DNA of 48,869 nucleotides from IMG/VR virus record IMGVR_UViG_3300023174_000248, positions 1 to 48,869 of that record; one strand, 5' to 3'. Under the pieces are notes generated by a model. That model was given only the letters and a program-made list of their open reading frames with translations, was not told the DNA's origin and did not search any database. Below, in pieces: positions 4,224 through 30,919 of the stretch (position 1 is its first letter; each line of letters begins with the position of its first letter). The position numbers and the translations under genes are program-made. The stretch comes from a virus.

Positions 4224-4260
4224 TGGATGTTTCTTCACAGAAATATTTGCATTGATTCAG

Positions 4261-4289
4261 TGCAAAGTTTGGTGCTGTTGTTATAAACT
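4261..4289 (+). promoter_or_regulatory. Phage promoter, TGCAAAGT box class
   Basis: TGCAAAGT at 4261-4268, 15 bases, TAAACT at 4284-4289 (within TATAAACT). ATG 4295 lies 5 bases downstream. The promoter is intact although the gene behind it appears broken. Confidence 0.7.
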
Positions 4290-7460: not shown

Positions 7461-7466
7461 GAGAAG

Positions 7467-7495
7467 TGAAAAGCATCTCTGAATAATGGTATGGT
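7467..7495 (+). promoter_or_regulatory. Phage promoter, TGAAAAGC box class
   Basis: TGAAAAGC at 7467-7474, 15 bases, TATGGT at 7490-7495, and exactly 6 bases to ATG 7502. The box is a weaker match (6 of 8) but all spacings equal the consensus. Confidence 0.55.
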
Positions 7496-7501
7496 GATCA
7501 C

Positions 7502-7924
7502 ATGAGGAACCTATACAAAAAAGTGAACTGGCTTCCTGGTGCGAGAGAGGAAAAGAAGGCAATTGCTCCTCTTCATCCTCTACTCGCCGAGCGGAAGATC
7601 GAGGAATACAACAATTCCGCATCCCTCAAGGACGGGCTCATTCCCGGGGCATTGTGGTTCACTCACTATGATCTTCGTGAGGAAGGGAGATATGTTAGGT
7701 GCGGATACTCGCCGCACCCTTTTCCCTACGTTGCTCTCGCTGCTAATGCCTACACCCAAGGAACAATCATTCCTTGTGGATCAACCGCAATCTATCTGGG
7801 GGCAGTGCGACTCGAAGAAGAATCCTCCAAGAAGGCGCTCGTTCGGGTGCTCCGCCACTCCTTTCTCATCGGCGGTCGACAGTACATCACCAACGATATT
7901 GGAAAGTACTTCTATCCAGCATGA
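7502..7924 (+). CDS. SH3-like small protein, 140 aa
   Basis: A basic and helical N terminus (RNLYKKVNWLPGAREEKKA) precedes a beta domain containing YVALAANAYTQGTIIPCGSTAIYLGAV, RVLRHSFLIGGRQYITNDI. The order (strand, Gly turn, hydrophobic strand, R-V-L strand, GG turn, final strand) matches the SH3-like paralogues of this window, fused to a longer N terminus. It starts a four-gene overlapping unit that ends at 8627. Function unknown. Confidence 0.6.
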   Translation: MRNLYKKVNWLPGAREEKKAIAPLHPLLAERKIEEYNNSASLKDGLIPGALWFTHYDLREEGRYVRCGYSPHPFPYVALAANAYTQGTIIPCGSTAIYLGAVRLEEESSKKALVRVLRHSFLIGGRQYITNDIGKYFYPA

Positions 7925-9332: not shown

Positions 9333-9333
9333 G

Positions 9334-9362
9334 TGCAAAGTGCCTCCCCGGTGTTATAAGGT
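9334..9362 (+). promoter_or_regulatory. Phage promoter for rtcB
   Basis: TGCAAAGT at 9334-9341, 15 bases, TAAGGT at 9357-9362 (TATAAGGT), 6 bases, ATG 9369. This is a perfect example of the class, with the box starting 35 bases before the start codon and no room for a ribosome site on the mRNA. Confidence 0.8.
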
Positions 9363-9368
9363 GGAGGC

Positions 9369-10589
9369 ATGGAAGTTATCGCAGATCCCAATCACAAGCC
9401 CGTCAAGATGTGGGTTGAAGGTGTTCCCGTTGAAATTGAGGCTGTGAATCAGCTGAAGCACACGGCAGCCCTTCCCTTCGTTTGGCCGCATGTTGCGGTG
9501 ATGCCGGATGTTCACGTTGGCATGGGTGCAACGGTTGGATCCGTTGTTCCCACGATCGGTGCAATCGTTCCCGCTGCGGTTGGGGTTGATATCGGTTGTG
9601 GCATGTGCGCGGTGAGAACCTCTCTTACTTCTCACGACCTTCCCGGTAATTTCTCACATGTTCGTGCAATGATCGAGAAGCTCGTTCCCCACGGCCGCAC
9701 AGATAACGGTGGTGTGAATGATCGAGGCAGATGGAAGAATGTTCCAGAGGCAATCGCGCGTGCCTGGGAAGCCGAGCTAGCTGAAGGTTGGAACCTCATC
9801 CTCGCAAAGCATCCGAAGCTTCACGGGCGGAGCGGAGCAACTGCGGAGCATCTCGGCACGCTCGGCACGGGAAACCACTTCATCGAGTTGTGCCTCGATG
9901 AATCCGATAATGTGTGGATCATGCTTCACTCAGGTTCCCGCGGCGTGGGAAACAGGATCGGATCCTACTTCATCGAGAAGGCAAAGGAGGAGATGGAGCG
10001 ATGGTTCATCAACCTTCCTAATGCAGATCTGGCATACCTTTCTGAGGGTTCTCAGTACTTCTCCGATTACGTTGAGGCGGTTGGATGGGCTCAGAAGTAC
10101 GCTGAAATTAATCGCATCACGATGCTAAATGCAACGATCTCCGCAGTGAAGGCGAGCATCTCCAAGAAGTTTGAGCTCACTGAGGAGGCAGTTAATTGCC
10201 ACCACAACTACATCTCAAAAGAAAATCACTTCGGAAAGAACGTTTGGATTACCCGCAAGGGAGCGGTTTCCGCCAGAGAACATCAGTTCGGCATCATCCC
10301 AGGTTCGATGGGAACGCGCTCTTACATCGTGAAAGGCAAGGGCAATAAGGAGTCGCTCTGCTCTTGTTCCCACGGCGCGGGTCGGAAGATGAGCAGAAAC
10401 GAGGCGTCTCGAACGTTCACCCTCGCTGATCACAGGGCGGCAACCGTGGGCGTTGAGTGCAGGAAGGACAAGGAAGTGATCGATGAAACGCCCGGCGCAT
10501 ACAAGGATATTGATAACGTGATCGCTGCACAGGCAGATCTCGTTGAAGTTGTTCATACGTTGAAGCAGTTCATCTGCGTGAAAGGTTGA
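9369..10589 (+). CDS. rtcB: RNA-splicing ligase RtcB
   Basis: RtcB joins RNA 2',3'-cyclic-phosphate (or 3'-phosphate) ends to 5'-OH ends using GTP and Mn2+. Its 406 residues match the usual bacterial length. Visible motifs are PDVHVGMGATVGSV, GVDIGCGM with metal-binding Cys77, LGTGNHFIEL, HSGSRGVGN, and CSHGAGRKMSR. In the last, His335 corresponds to the guanylylated histidine. In phages it can repair tRNAs cut in the anticodon loop by host defence nucleases. The window also encodes several tRNAs and a cyclic-phosphate-type receiver protein. It heads a unit with membrane and small proteins. Confidence 0.95.
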   Translation: MEVIADPNHKPVKMWVEGVPVEIEAVNQLKHTAALPFVWPHVAVMPDVHVGMGATVGSVVPTIGAIVPAAVGVDIGCGMCAVRTSLTSHDLPGNFSHVRAMIEKLVPHGRTDNGGVNDRGRWKNVPEAIARAWEAELAEGWNLILAKHPKLHGRSGATAEHLGTLGTGNHFIELCLDESDNVWIMLHSGSRGVGNRIGSYFIEKAKEEMERWFINLPNADLAYLSEGSQYFSDYVEAVGWAQKYAEINRITMLNATISAVKASISKKFELTEEAVNCHHNYISKENHFGKNVWITRKGAVSAREHQFGIIPGSMGTRSYIVKGKGNKESLCSCSHGAGRKMSRNEASRTFTLADHRAATVGVECRKDKEVIDETPGAYKDIDNVIAAQADLVEVVHTLKQFICVKG

Positions 10590-11779: not shown

Positions 11780-11859
11780 TGGATCATCCCTCACTCGCAC
11801 TGTGGATCGTTGCTGGTTTAGCCATTCTGGTCCTCTTTGTTCATCGCATGAAACCATAA
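11779..11859 (+). CDS. 26-aa membrane miniprotein
   Basis: The start shares a base with the previous stop (TGATG at 11777-11781). MDHPSLALWIVAGLAILVLF then VHRMKP is one transmembrane helix with a basic end. The next promoter box begins at the base after the stop, so this compact packing supports a real gene. Confidence 0.45.
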   Translation: MDHPSLALWIVAGLAILVLFVHRMKP

Positions 11860-11888
11860 TGCAAAGTTGGTCCATGCGTGTGTAGGAT
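11860..11888 (+). promoter_or_regulatory. Phage promoter, TGCAAAGT box class
   Basis: TGCAAAGT at 11860-11867, 15 bases, TAGGAT at 11883-11888, 6 bases, ATG 11895. The spacing is an exact match to the consensus. Confidence 0.75.
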
Positions 11889-11894
11889 GAGGTC

Positions 11895-12152
11895 ATGCCA
11901 CTAATCATCGTGATTTTTGTTGCCCTGATTATTTCATTCCTCTTCCCGAAGTTAGCACAGGCTCTTGCCTGGTTCCTCACTCTCGCCTTTATTATCCCCT
12001 TCTGTACGTTTGGTATTGGCTCTTTTGCATGGGCTGTTGCCAACATCTTTACGGGTACGGCCTTTTGGGGATGGCACGGCTGGTGGGGGTTCTGCATGTT
12101 TATTGGTTTTCCCATTGGGCTCGCCGCGGCTTGGTGGATTCACACGGATTGA
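11895..12152 (+). CDS. Membrane protein, 85 aa
   Basis: It is nearly all hydrophobic, with helices at about 2-17, 24-52 and 58-81, separated by short Gly/Trp-rich turns (GTAFWGWHGWWGFC). Probably three transmembrane segments. It is the first gene after a leaderless-type promoter. No family recognised. Confidence 0.6.
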   Translation: MPLIIVIFVALIISFLFPKLAQALAWFLTLAFIIPFCTFGIGSFAWAVANIFTGTAFWGWHGWWGFCMFIGFPIGLAAAWWIHTD

Positions 12153-12468: not shown

Positions 12469-12534
12469 TGGGGCGGGTGGATTACCCATGGGGATCCTCC
12501 GATTAATCCTGTGAGATCGCAGATGATCTTTCTG

Positions 12535-12563
12535 TGCAAAGTGCACCCGGGAGATGGTATCCT
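12535..12563 (+). promoter_or_regulatory. Phage promoter, TGCAAAGT box class
   Basis: TGCAAAGT at 12535-12542, 15 bases, TATCCT at 12558-12563. A short 18-codon frame starts at ATG 12568. The main gene starts at 12599 behind a GAGG site, so this promoter serves a short-leader mRNA. Confidence 0.65.
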
Positions 12564-14138: not shown

Positions 14139-14146
14139 GAGCCGCG

Positions 14147-14175
14147 TGCAAAGTTGTGGCATCTCGGTTTATGAT
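14147..14175 (+). promoter_or_regulatory. Phage promoter, TGCAAAGT box class
   Basis: TGCAAAGT at 14147-14154, 15 bases, TATGAT at 14170-14175, then 7 bases to ATG 14183. It lies 8 bases after the GH5 stop codon. Confidence 0.75.
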
Positions 14176-14182
14176 GAGGTTA

Positions 14183-14944
14183 ATGAAACCCTTCGACATC
14201 GATGAGCTCGTCCCCGATTACAGGCCGGCCCTCGTGGCGCCTAAGCGAAAACTCACCGCCGCTGAGAAACGGATGTTCGAGCGTTCACAGAGGATCTACA
14301 CGGCACACCCCTACAACCGTCCCGTAGATTCCTACCCCGGCGTGAAGCCCGAGGCGATCCTGAATTGGCGCGCGATCGAGAGGCGAATGGCACAGATCAA
14401 CGAGATGTGGAAGATCGCCAACGGTGCACTGTGGGCAACGCTACAGTTGGCGCACGAACGCCTCGGGCTCGAGCGCCGCGATTCCCTCTGCGTGTTCACT
14501 CAACGTGATTGGATTCTCCGGTATGAGCGCGGCGGCATCTCACACGTGGATCCCGTTCGCCTCGCGAAGGATCTCGTCTCGGGCAAACGTGACGGTGAGA
14601 AGATCGAGAAGATGGCAACCATCAAGTACGAAGAGGGCGGTCGAGAGATCGGGAGGATGGAGCACAAGGCAAACCGCCTCCACAGGATGTTCACTGTGTA
14701 CGAGAGGATCCTGCATCGGGCAATCCAGGATCGCCTCCAGGTGCAGCTCGATCGCACCAGGGATGCGGTGGGTGAAAACGTAACCCACCCGTACTACTAT
14801 CCACCCACCGTGTACATCATCGAGAACGAGGGTAGGATGATGATCGCCCAGAGCGATTCCATGGGGCGGCTCTCGTGGATCAACGGTGATGTGATGATTT
14901 CCGAGAAGGGAGGAAACGATGAGCGAGCGAAAATTGCTGCGTAA
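14183..14944 (+). CDS. Hypothetical protein, 253 aa
   Basis: The frame opens at 14060, but the promoter fixes ATG 14183 (MKPFDIDELVPDYRPALVAP). The body is rich in long charged helices (AIERRMAQINEMWKIANGAL, KANRLHRMFTVYERILHRAI). A C-terminal beta segment follows (TVYIIENEGRMMIAQS). There is no recognisable motif. First gene of a coupled unit running to 16553; the end overlaps the next start by 26 bases. Confidence 0.6.
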   Translation: MKPFDIDELVPDYRPALVAPKRKLTAAEKRMFERSQRIYTAHPYNRPVDSYPGVKPEAILNWRAIERRMAQINEMWKIANGALWATLQLAHERLGLERRDSLCVFTQRDWILRYERGGISHVDPVRLAKDLVSGKRDGEKIEKMATIKYEEGGREIGRMEHKANRLHRMFTVYERILHRAIQDRLQVQLDRTRDAVGENVTHPYYYPPTVYIIENEGRMMIAQSDSMGRLSWINGDVMISEKGGNDERAKIAA

Positions 14945-20487: not shown

Positions 20488-20575
20488 GGAGAGATGGCTG
20501 AGTTGGTTTAAAGCAATCGACTTGAAATCGATCGTGCCCGGAAGGGCACCGGGGGTTCGAATCCCTCTCTCTCCG
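20488..20575 (+). tRNA. tRNA-Ser(TGA)
   Basis: Acceptor GGAGAGA/TCTCTCC, anticodon stem ATCGA/TCGAT with loop CTTGAAA (anticodon TGA), a long variable arm (GTGCCC/GGGCAC) typical of class II tRNA, and T arm with GGTTCGAATCC. Discriminator G. 88 nt. Confidence 0.95.
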
Positions 20576-20769: not shown

Positions 20770-20820
20770 CAACGTTGTAAATAATCTGTAAGTTTTAGGA
20801 TCGAACAAATAGTTATTCAC

Positions 20821-21564
20821 ATGCAAAATTGTGAAATTTGCAATTCGTTCCATGATGGAACTTATGGTTCAGGCAGATTCTGCGGTCTAAAATGTTCAAA
20901 AACTTTTTCTTCTACATGTAAGAAAAGTTCTAAAAACGAAAATATAAGCAATTCCTTGAAAGGAAGACTGAGGACAAGAACTCTTCTTGTCAAAAATTGC
21001 TTGAAGTGCAGTAATGAGTTTTCAACTGTTAAAACAAGCAAAAAATATTGCAGTCACCATTGTGCAGTTCTTGCTAGCAATTCTAACGATGCAGTAAAAG
21101 AGAAGTTACGAATTGCAAGAATTCGAGAAATTGAAAAAGGAAATGTTGGTTACGGAATAAAGACAGAATATAGAGGAATCCGATGTGATTCTGCACTTGA
21201 ATATGCTTTTCTAAAAAAGTATTTTCAGGACAATCCTGAATCGAAAATTGAAAGATTCAGGGGTCATATTGTTACGTCAAGTGGTAGAAAATATCAACCG
21301 GATTTTATCATTGATGATAAGATAATAGTTGAAGTCAAGTACACAACGCCTTACGTTGGAGAAAAACTTTCTAGTAAATGGAAAACATATCTTTCAACTC
21401 AAGAAGAAAAATTAGCTGCTCTGAAAGAAATGTCTTCTGAGGGATTCAGCTATTTGTGGATTACTGAGAAGGATGTAGGTGTTCCATTCTACAGAAATTG
21501 TTTAAAAGAAATACGATCTACTGCTATAATAGAACCATGCCAACTTACGATTATAAGTGCTTAG
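20821..21564 (+). CDS. Zn-finger PD-(D/E)XK endonuclease, probable homing enzyme
   Basis: Two N-terminal zinc-finger-like units (CEICNSFHDGTYGSGRFCGL.KC and CLKCSNEF...YCSHHC) precede a nuclease domain: SALEYAFLKKYF, then RKYQPDFIIDDKIIVEVKY. The Glu, PDF Asp and E-V-K form a PD-(D/E)XK site. The C terminus continues with LWITEKDV. The YGSGRFC finger is common in phage homing endonucleases. PD-(D/E)XK homing enzymes are known from tRNA group I introns (I-Ssp6803I). The gene is visibly more AT-rich than its surroundings and lies 0.6 kb from an intron-bearing tRNA, which argues for recent mobile entry. Confidence 0.75.
   Translation: MQNCEICNSFHDGTYGSGRFCGLKCSKTFSSTCKKSSKNENISNSLKGRLRTRTLLVKNCLKCSNEFSTVKTSKKYCSHHCAVLASNSNDAVKEKLRIARIREIEKGNVGYGIKTEYRGIRCDSALEYAFLKKYFQDNPESKIERFRGHIVTSSGRKYQPDFIIDDKIIVEVKYTTPYVGEKLSSKWKTYLSTQEEKLAALKEMSSEGFSYLWITEKDVGVPFYRNCLKEIRSTAIIEPCQLTIISA
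21502..21530 (+). promoter_or_regulatory. Phage promoter, weak box with perfect -10
   Basis: TTAAAAGA at 21502-21509, 15 bases, TATAAT at 21525-21530, exactly 6 bases to ATG 21537. It lies within the end of the endonuclease gene. Confidence 0.5.
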
Positions 21565-22442: not shown

Positions 22443-22502
22443 GATCTTTAAGTATTAAAAAGAGTTGTTGTACATGCTCCTTCTGCATAGTAAATTGAAT
22501 TT

Positions 22503-22526: not shown

Positions 22527-22550
22527 TTTGTCTTTCAACCTGTCAACCAG

Positions 22551-22579
22551 TGTAAAGGTCAACTCAGAGTAGTTATACT
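22551..22579 (+). promoter_or_regulatory. Phage promoter, TGTAAAGG box class
   Basis: TGTAAAGG at 22551-22558, 15 bases, TATACT at 22574-22579, 12 bases to ATG 22592. It leads the unit containing the deaminase, receiver protein and sigma factor. Confidence 0.65.
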
Positions 22580-22591
22580 GAGAGCACCAAC

Positions 22592-22951
22592 ATGGCTTCC
22601 GACAAAAAGATGTTAGCAGAGGCAGCTTCTGCTGCGATCAGGAGCAAAGACATTCGTACCTTCCTCCTAGGTGCAGTAGGCCTGCGTGCCGATGGTGTGT
22701 TTGTTTCCTCGAGAAACATTCCGGCGCCCGAGGCCACATTTGATCGAACTCATCACGCTGAGACTCGCCTCGCGAGGAAGCTGACTCCGGGGTCTACTGT
22801 TTGGGTGGCGCGAGTGGCGCGCAAGGACGGTTCCTGGGCGATGTCTAAACCATGCATGGGTTGTGAACGACGGCTTCGTATCGCAGGAGTGACTCGCATA
22901 GTTTACACTATTGGTCCGAATGAATGGGGAGTAATCTCATGCGAATCTTGA
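22592..22951 (+). CDS. Cytidine/deoxycytidylate deaminase-fold protein
   Basis: HHAETRLARK provides H55-A56-E57, and PCMGCERRL provides C88 and C91, which is the zinc-binding HAE...PCxxC set of the deaminase superfamily. At 119 residues it is a single minimal domain. It could act on dCMP, free cytidine or an RNA/DNA base; the sequence does not say. It overlaps the receiver-domain gene by 13 bases. Confidence 0.75.
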   Translation: MASDKKMLAEAASAAIRSKDIRTFLLGAVGLRADGVFVSSRNIPAPEATFDRTHHAETRLARKLTPGSTVWVARVARKDGSWAMSKPCMGCERRLRIAGVTRIVYTIGPNEWGVISCES

Positions 22952-23343
22952 TCCTTGATGATGAAGAAGTTCGACACACCGATCTTGCTGAGTTTTACTC
23001 TGGGCACGAGGTGGTCCACGTAGAGACTTACAACCATTTCATTCGTGAACTTGTGAGTGGTTCTCCGTGGAGCTTGATCCACCTTGACCACGACCTGGGT
23101 CCTGGTGATTCCTACCTGGATGGATGGGGTAACATGCAATTCTTCACGGGACAACATGCTGCGATTCGCGTGTGTGAGTTGCACGATGATCATCTACCAG
23201 CCGAGGTGATCGTCCACAGCGTCAATCCGTTGGGAGCGAACATCATGGTGACTGATTTGAAGTCTAGAAAGGTGAAAGTGACATGGCGTCCGTACACACA
23301 AATGAATCTGAAGAGGAAGCAAATGTGCAATATGAGAAGTTAG
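22939..23343 (+). CDS. Cyclic-phosphate-processing-type receiver domain protein
   Basis: MRILILDDEEVRHTDLAEFY opens a receiver-like fold, LIHLDHDLGPGDSYLDGWG gives the acidic core, and EVIVHSVNPLGANIMVTDLK the last strand with HSxNPxGA. I recall this set as the cPP-REC (cyclic-phosphate processing receiver) family predicted to act in RNA repair or nucleotide signalling. GGGGAG lies before ATG 22939. The C-terminal 20 residues are basic. With RtcB it forms a possible RNA-end theme. Confidence 0.75.
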   Translation: MRILILDDEEVRHTDLAEFYSGHEVVHVETYNHFIRELVSGSPWSLIHLDHDLGPGDSYLDGWGNMQFFTGQHAAIRVCELHDDHLPAEVIVHSVNPLGANIMVTDLKSRKVKVTWRPYTQMNLKRKQMCNMRS

Positions 23344-23765: not shown

Positions 23766-24587
23766 ATGATTACAGATGAAAAAAGAAAAACTTCTATCAA
23801 GTCAAGCGCGATAGGAACATACCTCAATGAATTAAAGTCATATCCTCAACTCAAGCATCCTGAAGTCGTAAGCCTCTTTCAGACTTATGAAACAGGAGGA
23901 CAAGCCGCCGAGAAGGCACGCAAGAAACTTATTGAGAGCAACCTTCGGCTCGTCATCTCAATCGCAAAGAAACAAAAGGGTCACAACATTCCACTTGAAG
24001 ATCTCATTCAGGAAGGAAATCTTGGTCTCCTCAAAGCTATCGAGCGGTTCGACTACAAGAAGGGATTTCGATTCTCCACCTATGCCACATGGTGGATTAA
24101 ACAGGCGATCAACCAGCATCTTCTAAAACACAAGAGAATGATTCGGCTTCCGGCTCATGTCGCAGGCATTCAAAGAAAGCTGCTTCAAGAAGCTGACAAG
24201 TTTCGAAAAATGACAGGAACTGAACCGACACAAGAAGATCTATTTGGGCTTGTAGACGCCTCCGAGACCATTGTGAAGGCGACGATGTCTACAAACAATA
24301 TAATTGTTTCTCTCAATCAACAGATCTCTTCAGATCCTAATTCTGGAACCATAGGAGATAAGATTGAAGACCCGGAAGAGAATCACAATCCTTTCTACAG
24401 CGTCTCTTCTCGTGAACTGATGGGAATAGTAAGCCACGTCCTGTCTTCTCTCACTGAAAAAGAGTCTGCAATCTTAAAGCTGAGATTTGGTCTATTTGAT
24501 GAGCTCGACACCGAAAGCTCTTCGAACGAATACAGTATCACTCACGAAGAAGAGCTTCATCTTAAAGAAGGAATTCCTTTAAGATGA
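23766..24587 (+). CDS. RpoD-like sigma factor lacking region 4.2
   Basis: The protein has a region 1.2-like start ([15 protein letters not shown]). Region 2 is excellent ([57 protein letters not shown]) and binds core and the -10. Region 3 is present ([20 protein letters not shown]). Region 4.1 starts ([19 protein letters not shown]). The sequence then turns acidic and stops ([20 protein letters not shown]), with no -35-reading helix-turn-helix. No frame downstream restores it. AAAAGGA precedes ATG 23766. It probably directs phage promoters together with a separate -35 reader. Confidence 0.88.
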
Positions 24588-24805
24588 TCAGCTATGCGAT
24601 TTTATTTTTGTCAATCGCAACACTGGGAATATCTGTTCTGAATTTTCAGAGAACTTCACATCTTCTTTTTAGGGTTGAATTCATTTTCAGAGAAACAAAG
24701 AAGCTAGCAGGTTCAGAATCCCAAGAGCCTGATTATCTTAATAAGCGTTTACATGAACTTCAGAGGATGCGTTTCTCTTTGATCAAGGGAACACGTCAAG
24801 AATAA
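24584..24805 (+). CDS. Membrane-anchored helical protein, 73 aa
   Basis: The start overlaps the sigma stop (ATGA). One N-terminal transmembrane helix ([19 protein letters not shown]) leads to a charged helical tail ([20 protein letters not shown]). It lies between the two sigma-like genes and shares their transcript. An anti-sigma or tether role is speculative. Confidence 0.55.
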
Positions 24806-24806
24806 A

Positions 24807-25076
24807 ATGAGAAAGAACTATAAAAATTCTTATGCAACGGTGACCTTCGAAGAAGGAGTCAACTACAGAGAAATCGCCGACATGATGACGGAAATAGGCT
24901 ATAAGATGAATCACTCGTCTGCCCGAAACTATGTGTTGAGAGTGATGAGGAAATTTGCAGAGGCTATAATTGACAATTGGCAACTTGAAGTCACAGAAGA
25001 CAGGGTCGAAAAGATTTGCAAATCTCCTGAATTTCAAGCAGCAATCTGCGATTTAATCAAGAGAACCGAAAGCTGA
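24807..25076 (+). CDS. Sigma-region-4-like helix-turn-helix protein
   Basis: Residues 12-52, FEEGVNYREIADMMTEIGYK and MNHSSARNYVLRVMRKFAEA, have the form of sigma region 4.2: an acidic helix (REIADMM), a turn, a recognition helix with polar residues (HSSARNYV) and a terminal helix with RKFAEA like ALRKL. The rest is a short acidic helix. At 89 residues it lacks regions 2 and 3. It lies 220 bases from a sigma factor that lacks exactly this domain. Other HTH regulators remain possible. Confidence 0.65.
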   Translation: MRKNYKNSYATVTFEEGVNYREIADMMTEIGYKMNHSSARNYVLRVMRKFAEAIIDNWQLEVTEDRVEKICKSPEFQAAICDLIKRTES

Positions 25077-26359: not shown

Positions 26360-27061
26360 ATGCAAGACACAAAGAAGATCATCTCACGTCTTATCCTACA
26401 GAAGATACTCTCCTCCACGTCGGTGAAGTGGATGAAGAGTTCTCACTTCGAGACGATCTCAAAGTCCTTCCTCTCTCAAGAACCGGAGCGCGAGACGTAC
26501 ATCCAGTACATCCTGAAGAAAACGGGCGTGCCCGAGAATTCGTACGGGAACGACATCGTGACCCTGTCACTGAAGTGGATCGACTCAGACGGAGAGATCC
26601 TCGATCCTGAGGGAAACGTGTGGAAGTCCACCCAGTTGAAGATCTCTCCCTCCATCTCCTCCACCTACGGCGACAAGGAGGAGAATTTCGTCCCGCGAGT
26701 CGAGTGCATGTCGGAGGTACGAGTGCTCATCGGAGAGATTCGCGAGATGATCTCAGGACCCATTCGCATGATGATCCTCGACAACGAGGGGAGAATCGCG
26801 CGCGACACGAAGCGTAAGTACGATGCCATGTGCGACAAGATCGCCTCAAGGCTGAAGTACGAGAACAGAGATTTGAGGCACAACCTCCGCGTCGGAGGTC
26901 GAGGCCGTGGCGCATCACGCGACGCCTTCGCTGGGATCGAGGTGGGAAACTACGCGGTGGTCGTGAACGACGGTTCCCACAGGACGCCGCGATACAAGAA
27001 ATATTCCGTCGTGATCCCGGAGAATCCCGCTTATCTCGTGGTGATCAAGCGGGTAGAGTAG
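26360..27061 (+). CDS. Hypothetical protein, 233 aa
   Basis: ATG 26360 follows the previous stop by one base (MQDTKKIISRLILQKILSST). The central part holds FLSQEPERETYIQYILKKTG and KWIDSDGEILDPEGNVWKST. A conserved-looking basic region follows (LRHNLRVGGRGRGASRDAFA), then a beta end (YSVVIPENPAYLVVIKRVE). No family recognised. The basic Gly-rich stretch could contact nucleic acid. Confidence 0.6.
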   Translation: MQDTKKIISRLILQKILSSTSVKWMKSSHFETISKSFLSQEPERETYIQYILKKTGVPENSYGNDIVTLSLKWIDSDGEILDPEGNVWKSTQLKISPSISSTYGDKEENFVPRVECMSEVRVLIGEIREMISGPIRMMILDNEGRIARDTKRKYDAMCDKIASRLKYENRDLRHNLRVGGRGRGASRDAFAGIEVGNYAVVVNDGSHRTPRYKKYSVVIPENPAYLVVIKRVE

Positions 27062-27090
27062 TGCAAAGTTCACCTTCCCTGTGATAGAGT
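27062..27090 (+). promoter_or_regulatory. Phage promoter for the DNA ligase
   Basis: TGCAAAGT at 27062-27069, 15 bases, TAGAGT at 27085-27090, 6 bases, ATG 27097. The box lies immediately after the previous stop codon. Confidence 0.8.
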
Positions 27091-27096
27091 TGAAGC

Positions 27097-28437
27097 ATGG
27101 AATCAGTTCTCGACATCCTCGAAGCCCTGGAATCTGACAACTCCCGCCTCTTCAAGGAGGATACCCTCCGTAAGTACCGGGGTAACGAGTTACTCAAGAG
27201 TGTTTTCGTGGCCGTGGGTGATCCCTACATGAATTTCTTCGTAAACAAGTTCAAGGCGCCGAAGCCTGTTGCGATCGCGAGTGAAGCCGATGACGATGTT
27301 CTTGTGTCTTTCCTTGACATGCTTCAAGGCAGTCTCGCTACACGCAACATCACAGGTAATGCCGCCAAACGTGCTGTGGAGCAGTTCTTTGTCTCCTTGG
27401 ACTCTCGTCAGTCCAAGTGGTGTACTCGTATCCTCCTCCGCAATCTTCGTGTTGGAGTAAGCGAAAGTATTGTGGAGAAGACGTGGCCCGGAGCGATCTC
27501 CAAGTTCTCCGTTCAGCTCGCAGAATCTCTCGAGTCCCGCCATGAATCTAGCAAGGGTATTGTGATTGCTGAAACCATCGAATATCCAGTTAGGGTTGAA
27601 CCTAAACTGGACGGGCTGCGTTGCGTTGCGATCAAGCGCAACGGTGCAGTTACTATGTTCACTCGCAGTGGTTCTCCCATCGAAACTCTTCCTACGATCA
27701 AGGCAGCCCTCGAGGCCGCACCGTGGGATGGCTTCGTGCTTGATGCGGAATGCATGGGTCGAGATTGGAATGAATCAGCATCTGTCGTGATGTCCCACAA
27801 GACAGCTAAGGATGATTCCGGAATGATCCTCAACGTATTCGATGCGATGGTATTCGATGATTGGCGCGATCAGGCGAACGATTCGCCTCTCGAGGATCGC
27901 ATCGCTCTCGTACAGGAGCTCGTGGCTCAGGTTGCCTCTGAACATGTGGTTCAGGTTGGGGGCATCACCGCGGCGGATCAGGATGCCCTCCTCAAAGCCT
28001 ACGGCAAGGCCATTGAGAACGGTTTCGAGGGCATCATGGTGAAGAAACTCTCCTCCCCCTACATCTTTAAACGCTCCGATTCGGTGATGAAGTTAAAGCC
28101 GGTGGCGACCTACGAGGGTGTTATCGTGGGCCACTACGAGGGCAACCGTGGTTCCAAGCGCGAGGGCCTGTGGGGTGGTTTCCTCGTGGTGATGCCCAAC
28201 GGCGTGGTCACGAAGGTGGGCGGTGGTTACAACGACAAGATCCGTGCAGAGATCTCCATCGATCCTGACGGATGGATCGGTAAGATCATCGAGGTGGAGG
28301 GCCAACCCGATCCTCTCACTCACAACGGATTAACGAGCGATGGCAAGATTCGCTTTCCTGTCTTCATCCGTGAACGTGATCCTCGTGATGTGGATCCCAA
28401 AGTGATCGCGGCAGGGGAGGCGTACCGTGCCAACTGA
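27097..28437 (+). CDS. ATP-dependent DNA ligase
   Basis: It seals nicks in duplex DNA through a ligase-AMP intermediate. Motif I is EPKLDGLRC with Lys170 as the adenylated residue. Later motifs follow in order: VLDAECMG (motif III-like), GFEGIMVKK (motif IV), MKLKPVATYEGVIVG (motif V) and an OB-fold with KVGGGYND. An N-terminal helical domain of about 150 residues precedes them, as in larger viral ligases. The 446-residue length is typical for phage and archaeal-like forms. It heads a unit with a small helical protein and an FGE-fold protein. Confidence 0.93.
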   Translation: MESVLDILEALESDNSRLFKEDTLRKYRGNELLKSVFVAVGDPYMNFFVNKFKAPKPVAIASEADDDVLVSFLDMLQGSLATRNITGNAAKRAVEQFFVSLDSRQSKWCTRILLRNLRVGVSESIVEKTWPGAISKFSVQLAESLESRHESSKGIVIAETIEYPVRVEPKLDGLRCVAIKRNGAVTMFTRSGSPIETLPTIKAALEAAPWDGFVLDAECMGRDWNESASVVMSHKTAKDDSGMILNVFDAMVFDDWRDQANDSPLEDRIALVQELVAQVASEHVVQVGGITAADQDALLKAYGKAIENGFEGIMVKKLSSPYIFKRSDSVMKLKPVATYEGVIVGHYEGNRGSKREGLWGGFLVVMPNGVVTKVGGGYNDKIRAEISIDPDGWIGKIIEVEGQPDPLTHNGLTSDGKIRFPVFIRERDPRDVDPKVIAAGEAYRAN

Positions 28438-29472: not shown

Positions 29473-29555
29473 GTCGAATTCTCCCGAATATTCTGGTGAC
29501 GTCCCAGTGGGCCTCGCGTGGGGAGCATCATCGTTGATCTTTTTCGTGTGTGTAG

Positions 29556-29584
29556 TGCAAAGTGGAAGAGAGAAGGGATAAACT
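29556..29584 (+). promoter_or_regulatory. Phage promoter for the VWA unit
   Basis: TGCAAAGT at 29556-29563, 15 bases, TAAACT at 29579-29584, 6 bases, ATG 29591. Identical -10 to the promoters at 4261 and 4766, the latter driving the partner MoxR gene. Confidence 0.8.
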
Positions 29585-29590
29585 AAGATC

Positions 29591-30919
29591 ATGTTCGCCA
29601 ACTGTGAAACCGATTTCAACCTCGACCGGCACCTCATCTCCTTCCTGCAGGACAATCCGTTCTTCGCGGAGTTGAGCCGGCACATCCAGAAGACGCCCAC
29701 TCGGTCGATGCCCACCGCGGCGGTGGCGTTCAACGAGAAAACGGACGAGCTCGTCCTCTACTGGAACCCTGAGTTCTTCTCGAAACTGTCGCAGTGGGAG
29801 GTCCGAGGCGTCCTCACCCACGAGTACTACCACCTCGTCTTCGGGCACCTCTACGGTCGCCGACGAACTCCTCCGCAACTGTGGAACATTGCGACCGATC
29901 TCGCCATTAACTCTGTCATTATGGATTCGTCAAAGAATGGAACAGGTGGTCGTCTACAAGGGGACAGACCTCTTCCTACATTCGCACTTGTTCCTGGTGC
30001 TCGACCGAAGCATCCTGACGGTCGTGAATATACGAAAGATGAAGAGCAGGCGCAGAAGCTCGCTAATGTTATCGAGAAGCTGCCTACCATGAAGGCCTCT
30101 GAGTGGTACTTCGAGAAGATCAAGGAGGAATCCGACAAGGACAAGGCGTCGGGCGGAGAGGGCTTCGACTTCGACGGCGGGGGAGAACCCGGGATCGGTT
30201 CGATGGACGAGCACGGTTCGTGGTCGGAGGTTCCCGATGAGATCAAGGAGTACGTGGAGGGCAAGGTCAAGTCGATCGTTGAGAAGGCGGCGAAGCACGC
30301 TGACTCGCAGGCGAACGGTTGGGGAAACATTCCTTCAGAGCTCGTCGACGCGATCCGCAAGTCGGTGTCCAGTGTCGTGAACTGGCGAAACGTTCTCCGT
30401 CAGTTCGTGGGCACGATCACTCGTGGCGGACGTTCCACTTCGATCAAGCGCATCAATCCTCGCTATCCCTACATCCATCCGGGCGTGAAGCGCGGTTACC
30501 AGGCGAAACTCCTCATCGCGATCGACCAGTCGGGCTCCGTGTCCAACGAGATGCTCGGTGAGTTCTTTGCCGAACTTGGCTCGCTCACGAAGAAGGTCAC
30601 GATCGACATCCTGCCCTTCGACACCGAGGCGTACGAGAAGGACCTCTACACGTGGCGCCGCGGCGCCAATCTTCCCGCGAAGCGCGTCCGAGGAGGAGGC
30701 ACCGATTTCAACGCTCCCACCGTTTTCGCCAACAATCCGAAGAATCGTGGTCGGTGGGACGGCATGCTCATCATGACTGATGGTGAGTGCAGCGCACCTG
30801 GTCCCTCCCGGATCAAGCGCGGGTACGTGATCGGAAAGGGCCACACCCTTCTCTTCGCCACGAGCGAGATCGTGATCAAGATGGACGAGGCCGCGGCATC
30901 AGAGGGGGCGTGGCGATGA
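29591..30919 (+). CDS. DUF2201-type metallopeptidase/VWA protein, MoxR partner
   Basis: The N-terminal domain has THEYYHLVFGH (H77, E78, H81, with H86 nearby), a putative metallopeptidase. A Gly/Asp-rich linker and a helical part follow. The C-terminal VWA-like domain has LIAIDQSGSVS (MIDAS residues D312, S314, S316), RVRGGGTDF, and LIMTDGECS. Such proteins pair with MoxR ATPases. Here the partner lies at 4824. The promoter has the same -10. It overlaps the next gene by ATGA. Confidence 0.88.
   Translation: MFANCETDFNLDRHLISFLQDNPFFAELSRHIQKTPTRSMPTAAVAFNEKTDELVLYWNPEFFSKLSQWEVRGVLTHEYYHLVFGHLYGRRRTPPQLWNIATDLAINSVIMDSSKNGTGGRLQGDRPLPTFALVPGARPKHPDGREYTKDEEQAQKLANVIEKLPTMKASEWYFEKIKEESDKDKASGGEGFDFDGGGEPGIGSMDEHGSWSEVPDEIKEYVEGKVKSIVEKAAKHADSQANGWGNIPSELVDAIRKSVSSVVNWRNVLRQFVGTITRGGRSTSIKRINPRYPYIHPGVKRGYQAKLLIAIDQSGSVSNEMLGEFFAELGSLTKKVTIDILPFDTEAYEKDLYTWRRGANLPAKRVRGGGTDFNAPTVFANNPKNRGRWDGMLIMTDGECSAPGPSRIKRGYVIGKGHTLLFATSEIVIKMDEAAASEGAWR

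Follow-up and report, generated by a model that had tools for sequence, protein, structure and literature searches.

The window analysed here comprises the whole 48,869 nt of the IMG/VR virus record IMGVR_UViG_3300023174_000248 (positions 1 to 48,869), and three of its genes, which are arranged head to tail, are the subject of this work:

23766..24587, plus strand: truncated RpoD-like sigma factor, 273 aa, with regions 2, 3 and 4.1, without region 4.2, and with a conserved acidic tail
24584..24805, plus strand: small membrane protein, 73 aa, its start overlapping the sigma stop, with the C-terminal motif LN.RL..LQ.MRFS and a membrane helix read from the sequence
24807..25076, plus strand: HTH protein, 89 aa, the proposed -35-reading subunit (region 4.2 in trans), based on an alignment of 46 relatives, a structure model, co-occurrence and profile comparison

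The sigma ORF begins with an ATG at 23766 and ends with a stop at 24587, and both this ORF and that of the 89-aa protein were recovered exactly where a sequence-only reading of the window had placed the two pieces of a split sigma factor. A protein with a cREC_REC (cyclic-phosphate processing receiver) domain is encoded in the same operon (22924-23343), and four tRNA genes (Ser, Lys, Leu and Met) are found at 20488, 20698, 38866 and 38960.

The 273-aa protein matched the sigma family PHROG_351 (E=7.5e-55) and aligned throughout with full-length RpoD-type sigma factors. In the comparison with Pfam, Sigma70_r2 exceeded its cut-off (E=9.5e-23), Sigma70_r4 was matched at profile positions 1-21 of 50 only, and Sigma70_r3 was weak (E=0.00096, 19.7 bits, under the cut-off of 25.3); strong regions 2 and 3 and the start of region 4.1 had been described from the letters alone, and the observation as a whole was confirmed. 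Region 2 carries the sigma70 -10 signature. When compared with the full-length RpoD of phage MaAM05, the chain stops at KLRFGLFD, just before the helix-turn-helix, at a point where the MaAM05 protein goes on, and an AlphaFold2 model of the tail consists of the region-4.1 helices 209-228 and 231-241, a low-confidence stretch and a short helix 260-267, with no second HTH. The partial Sigma70_r4 match and the model agree with the earlier description of a tail devoid of a -35-reading HTH, and the idea that the tail might fold as a hidden region 4 finds no support in this model. The region 4.2 HTH is therefore missing from the chain, and the cut falls between regions 4.1 and 4.2. Both the truncation and the conserved tail Y..(T/S).EE...G..L recur in 51 non-redundant loci, whereas region 4.2 is kept in the other phage sigma factors that we inspected, including those of Microcystis phage MaAM05, Prevotella phage Lak and Synechococcus phage S-N03. 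A frameshift, an intein or an assembly error was rejected as the cause, because a whole gene separates the two halves and all 51 of these loci agree. In each of seven records between 74 and 369 kb long, one clear sigma region 2 was detected, and the largest of them has an additional weak sigma match below the cut-off (E=0.001).

Searches of IMG/VR yielded 38 loci with the sigma factor as query, 47 with the small protein and 80 with the alignment of the small protein. Whichever protein was used as query, both genes were present on the same strand and in the same order on 102 of 102 distinct contigs (counted by contig name), and no fusion of the sigma and HTH parts (a Rosetta stone) was found among these 102 contigs. 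The layout in the 51 listed non-redundant loci was the same throughout, with the truncated sigma followed by the small membrane protein and then the HTH protein, the protein in between having one membrane helix and the C-terminal LN.RL..LQ.MRFS motif. In one GC-rich clade, one or two additional genes are inserted between the halves, and the linkage persists despite extra intervening genes in L053, L061 and L076; the sigma identity between the clades sharing this linkage is 50-79%. The constant gene order, together with the single clear sigma factor per large record, bears out the split proposed at the outset, and the split as a conserved cassette is strongly supported. The phages carrying it are a family of large uncultured phages. 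The 73-aa membrane protein is possibly a regulator or anchor of the pair, perhaps acting as an anti-sigma factor or as a membrane anchor.

The identity of the 89-aa protein was addressed at the levels of sequence, profile and structure. Across 46 sequences, the residues MNHSSARN are invariant at the putative recognition helix, within the conserved stretch MNHSSARN..R.M.KF. The AlphaFold2 model places helices at residues 20-29 and 36-57 (HTH), followed by 64-72 and 74-88, with a mean pLDDT >90 across residues 21-80; the long recognition helix 36-57, modelled at high pLDDT, fits an HTH fold. As the invariant surface is the recognition helix, contact with DNA is suggested. A fold search of the PDB (Foldseek, VIA) returned no confident match, sigma region 4 included, the top rows being the Sap1 DNA-binding domain and P450 fragments. 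The Pfam cut-off for sigma domains (Sigma70_r4 / r4_2) was not reached, there was no sigma family among the 25 families listed for the 46 members at E<=1, and neither Pfam nor PHROGs provided a consistent significant family. Many members had weak matches to phrog_32519, phrog_1007 and phrog_26158, the functions of which are unassigned, while the Pfam matches to DUF6471, Phage_TAC_19, DUF5605 and others were all sub-threshold and inconsistent between members, and were rejected.

Profile-profile comparison with hhalign, using a panel of seven HTH families with domain sets gathered within this analysis, ranked ECF region 4.2 first, with a probability of 57-64% (32 to 90% on random halves of the small family). 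The score was 29.7, whereas the highest value among 60 column shuffles was 19.5, and the alignment covers the HTH from end to end, with five residues inserted in the turn. The GerE, HTH_3, DUF6471 (14.7, from a set of two sequences only), HTH_24, recombinase and RpoD-type region 4 sets were near null, so that no unrelated HTH family in this panel of seven scored better. The comparison with T4 gp33 showed no relation (hhalign probability 0.1, a weak result as it involved a single T4 sequence), and this identity was rejected. When the profile was run against 296 Bacteroidota genomes, six of the 15 matches at E<=0.1 were sigma region 4.2 (two families) and the others were unrelated; the best match was an ECF sigma region 4.2 (E=4.8e-4), in a genome that had been pre-selected by motif. 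The bacterial-genome search biased by the motif used gave an ECF sigma region 4 as its sole match. Three divergent queries returned no relatives of the small protein from 50,697 phage records (isolates). The 89-aa protein is thus an HTH protein that probably derives from region 4.2. The resemblance to region 4.2 noted in the sequence-only reading turned out to be better than chance but weak, and the further suggestion of a true region 4 is moderately supported by the profile rankings, even if no Pfam sigma match backs it.

When k-mers enriched upstream of genes were sought without supervision, GGTGCAAAGTC emerged from a 298-kb relative (G297), and its core also ranked first among the 8-mers of the window and of a 74-kb relative (G303); the promoter type that we call class 1 was thereby found unsupervised in three phages. 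Its aligned consensus reads GTGCAAAGt - N - gTGgTATAAT - N5 - C ATG, with a spacer of 17 bp if TGCAAA is taken as the -35 hexamer. Class 1 thus has the spacing of sigma70 promoters but a -35 box that departs from the standard. Counted from the start of the -10 element, the ATG follows after 12 nt, at the expected sigma70-type initiation point, and the class-1 mRNAs should therefore be leaderless, a prediction made from the sequence. The sites in the window are as follows:

22550..22579, plus strand: class-1 promoter in front of the sigma operon, identified by the PWM scan, with the sequence GTGTAAAGG-N15-TATACT; the ATG (22592) follows 12 nt downstream
4260..4289, plus strand: class-1 promoter, GTGCAAAGT..TAAACT, with an ATG 35 nt from the promoter start
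7466..7495, plus strand: class-1 promoter, GTGAAAAG..TATGGT, with the ATG at 7502, exactly 36 nt from the promoter start
9333..9362, plus strand: class-1 promoter of the RtcB-like RNA ligase gene (9369-10589), ATG at 9369
11859..11888, plus strand: class-1 promoter, ATGCAAAGT..TAGGAT, ATG at 11895
12534..12563, plus strand: class-1 promoter, GTGCAAAGT..TATCCT
14146..14175, plus strand: class-1 promoter, GTGCAAAGT..TATGAT, ATG at 14183
27061..27090, plus strand: class-1 promoter of the ATP-dependent DNA ligase gene (27097-28437), ATG at 27097
29555..29584, plus strand: class-1 promoter, GTGCAAAGT..TAAACT, ATG at 29591

The DNA ligase orthologue in G297 and G303 is likewise preceded by a class-1 promoter, and the genes behind this class, namely those for DNA ligase and RtcB and clusters of tiny genes, are early or middle in character.

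The motif GTG[CA]AA at exactly -36 from the ATG was counted 25 times in G297, 17 times in G303 and 29 times in the relative G298 against backgrounds of 1.1, 0.3 and 1.4, respectively, an enrichment of approximately 20- to 57-fold over other positions in these three relatives that was not found in the controls (2 versus 1.2 in the bacterial control, and likewise in the other phage controls). A position weight matrix (PWM) trained without the tested genome gave 11 sites of at least 12 bits in the window and none after shuffling, and 39 versus 3, 36 versus 1 and 50 versus 3 in G297, G303 and G298. There was no clear excess in G300, G301 or the controls, and G300 and G301 have few class-1 sites genome-wide despite an identical recognition helix. 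Scanning upstream of sigma in 68 loci placed a class-1 site near the sigma operon in most clades; with training limited to clades A and D, it was found before the operon in 11/16 loci of clade B and 15/15 of clade E, and in 0/7 of clade C (L048-L066), which carries the class-1 promoter elsewhere (L396). Among 2.9 million viral contigs, the exact pattern occurred on 18, ten of which hold the HTH gene, while the remaining eight, which have many proteins in common with the phage family, may represent fragments of its members; the promoter class is associated with this family. Base counts in pattern-selected loci are partly circular, because the pattern itself chose the loci. In clade D (L364-L373, G298), the -35 box is shifted to GTGAAAG, compared with GTGCAAAG, and in the HTH protein the K that precedes the recognition helix is replaced by S (GFSMNHSS). 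This co-variation of helix flank and -35 box is a hint in favour of the small protein as the -35 reader, a single clade counting as one event.

A second motif, ATA[TCG]TTA at -12 from the ATG (class 2), precedes endolysin genes in many members, and other genes as well, and has no -35 signal with it. It is present in the window, G297, G303, G298 and G300, and two sites in the window are relevant here:

22449..22455, minus strand: class-2 motif ATACTTA without a -35 box, 13 nt upstream of the endolysin ATG (22442)
20809..20815, plus strand: class-2 motif ATAGTTA, 12 nt before the ATG at 20821

Class 2 looks like a candidate late promoter. The predicted leaderless arrangement occurs in both promoter classes (window 27061, 29555 and 9333; G297, G303 and G298). 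Several genes that follow a class-2 motif encode proteins which are otherwise different but have a common MKI..(E/Q)LR.IIREE-like stretch at the N terminus (19064 in the window; L352 3099, L353 7446, L364 2878, L027 749), perhaps a common targeting or processing peptide.

We consider a two-subunit sigma factor, the small subunit of which reads the -35 box, to be the best explanation of these observations and a reasonably probable one. The 273-aa subunit would dock on the host core RNA polymerase via regions 2, 3 and 4.1 and would read and melt a TATAAT-type -10 element, while the 89-aa HTH subunit would replace region 4.2 near the beta flap and read the phage -35 box GTG(C/A)AAAG (GTGCAAAG). 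Together, we infer, the two proteins would contact each other and the polymerase and direct class-1 transcription, their own operon included (positive autoregulation), with starts at or beside the ATG that would produce leaderless mRNAs. The sigma factor ends between regions 4.1 and 4.2, and therefore the part that is missing is the part that the small protein would supply; the spacing is optimal for sigma70 while the -35 box differs from TTGACA, and a dedicated -35 reader is therefore to be expected. The two-subunit model accounts most simply for the constant linkage, for where the cut falls, for an unusual -35 box at ordinary spacing and for the invariance of the helix. Several findings speak against it: the profile match is to ECF-type and not RpoD-type region 4.2, the -35-less class-2 promoters exist and could be the target of the sigma factor instead, class-1 sites are sparse in G300 and G301 and lacking before the sigma operon of clade C, and the small protein has no significant family match, the subunit interaction and DNA binding being predictions.

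The main rival has the small HTH protein acting as a MotA-like activator on GTGCAAAG with the host sigma70, class 1 then being the middle promoters; the late promoters, the -35-less class 2, would be served by the truncated sigma in the manner of T4 gp55. We regard it as unlikely. It draws on the existence of two promoter classes, since a class without a -35 box that precedes endolysin in many phages matches a sigma factor without region 4.2, on the early or middle character of the genes behind class 1, and on a class-1 -10 element that is consensus-like and readable by the host sigma. However, a MotA box is shifted relative to the ordinary -35 distance, whereas the -35 box here stands at the ordinary sigma70 distance of 17 bp, where host region 4 would bind. 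Moreover, the sigma70 -10 signature kept in region 2 suits TATAAT better than ATATTTA, and linkage between the HTH gene and the sigma gene is invariable. A modular switch is a quite unlikely variant, in which the truncated sigma alone or with another factor would read the -35-less late promoters, the small HTH subunit would re-aim it at GTGCAAAG, the membrane protein would control the pairing, and both classes would be leaderless. That the small protein is a gp33-like coactivator, capping the beta flap without reading DNA in a pair that transcribes late genes, appears very unlikely: its size and linkage and the precedents of T4 gp55/gp33 and SPO1 gp34/gp33 (PMC7824862; PMC3601020) agree with this role, but the hhalign comparison with the single T4 gp33 sequence and the invariant recognition helix, which suggests DNA contact, do not. 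Most improbable is a truncated sigma that works alone next to an HTH protein serving as a separate regulator in a conserved operon, for which the sub-threshold region 4.2 homology and the presence of another conserved gene in the operon can be cited, against a linkage that holds on 102 contigs and between clades of 50-79% sigma identity even where extra genes intervene.

Sigma splits are known but rare, and we know of no RpoD-type sigma factor cut between regions 4.1 and 4.2; a literature search for 'split sigma factor' found nothing on the subject. T4 gp55 is far more diverged than an RpoD-like sigma factor, and T4 late promoters have no -35 box. The parallel with T4 gp55 and gp33 drawn in the sequence-only reading therefore applies in part: a phage sigma factor without a -35-reading domain is joined by a small partner, and the class-2 promoters also lack a -35 box, but no relation between gp33 and the small protein could be detected, and class 1, the main class of promoters, has a clear -35 box. 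In Bacillus subtilis, the sigma function of SigO-RsoA is divided between two proteins encoded by adjacent genes, one of them with the region-4 part (PMC8103513, PMC10141391). The likeness lies in the two linked genes (102/102 contigs here), the region-4 identity of the second gene being only probable in the phages. The SigO-RsoA system is cellular and its cut separates sigma2 from sigma4, whereas the phage pair has an RpoD-like sigma factor with regions 2, 3 and 4.1, a cut at 4.1/4.2 and, unlike SigO-RsoA, a membrane-protein gene in between. In phage SPO1, gp34 and gp33 jointly serve late transcription (PMC3601020); compared by sequence via PHROGs only, they showed no significant match to the small protein. 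The survey by Iyer et al. 2021 reports that sigma factors, minimal sigma factors with a single HTH and gp33 orthologues occur in jumbo phages of group 2, and its accessible text describes no RpoD-type sigma factor cut at 4.1/4.2 with a linked HTH partner (PMC7824862). The phage system is set apart from the known ones by the site of its cut, by a large subunit of RpoD-like type, by a conserved gene for a membrane protein and by promoters, predicted to be leaderless, that bear a -35 box.

If the two-subunit reading is true, these phages would present a natural separation of -10 and -35 recognition, and therefore each contribution could be swapped and tested, within a promoter system orthogonal to the host sigma70 (GTGCAAAG, 17 bp, TATAAT, leaderless). 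The findings furthermore provide a promoter signature that can be used to annotate a widespread group of uncultured large phages, and they offer a testable explanation for the redirection of the host polymerase by these phages.
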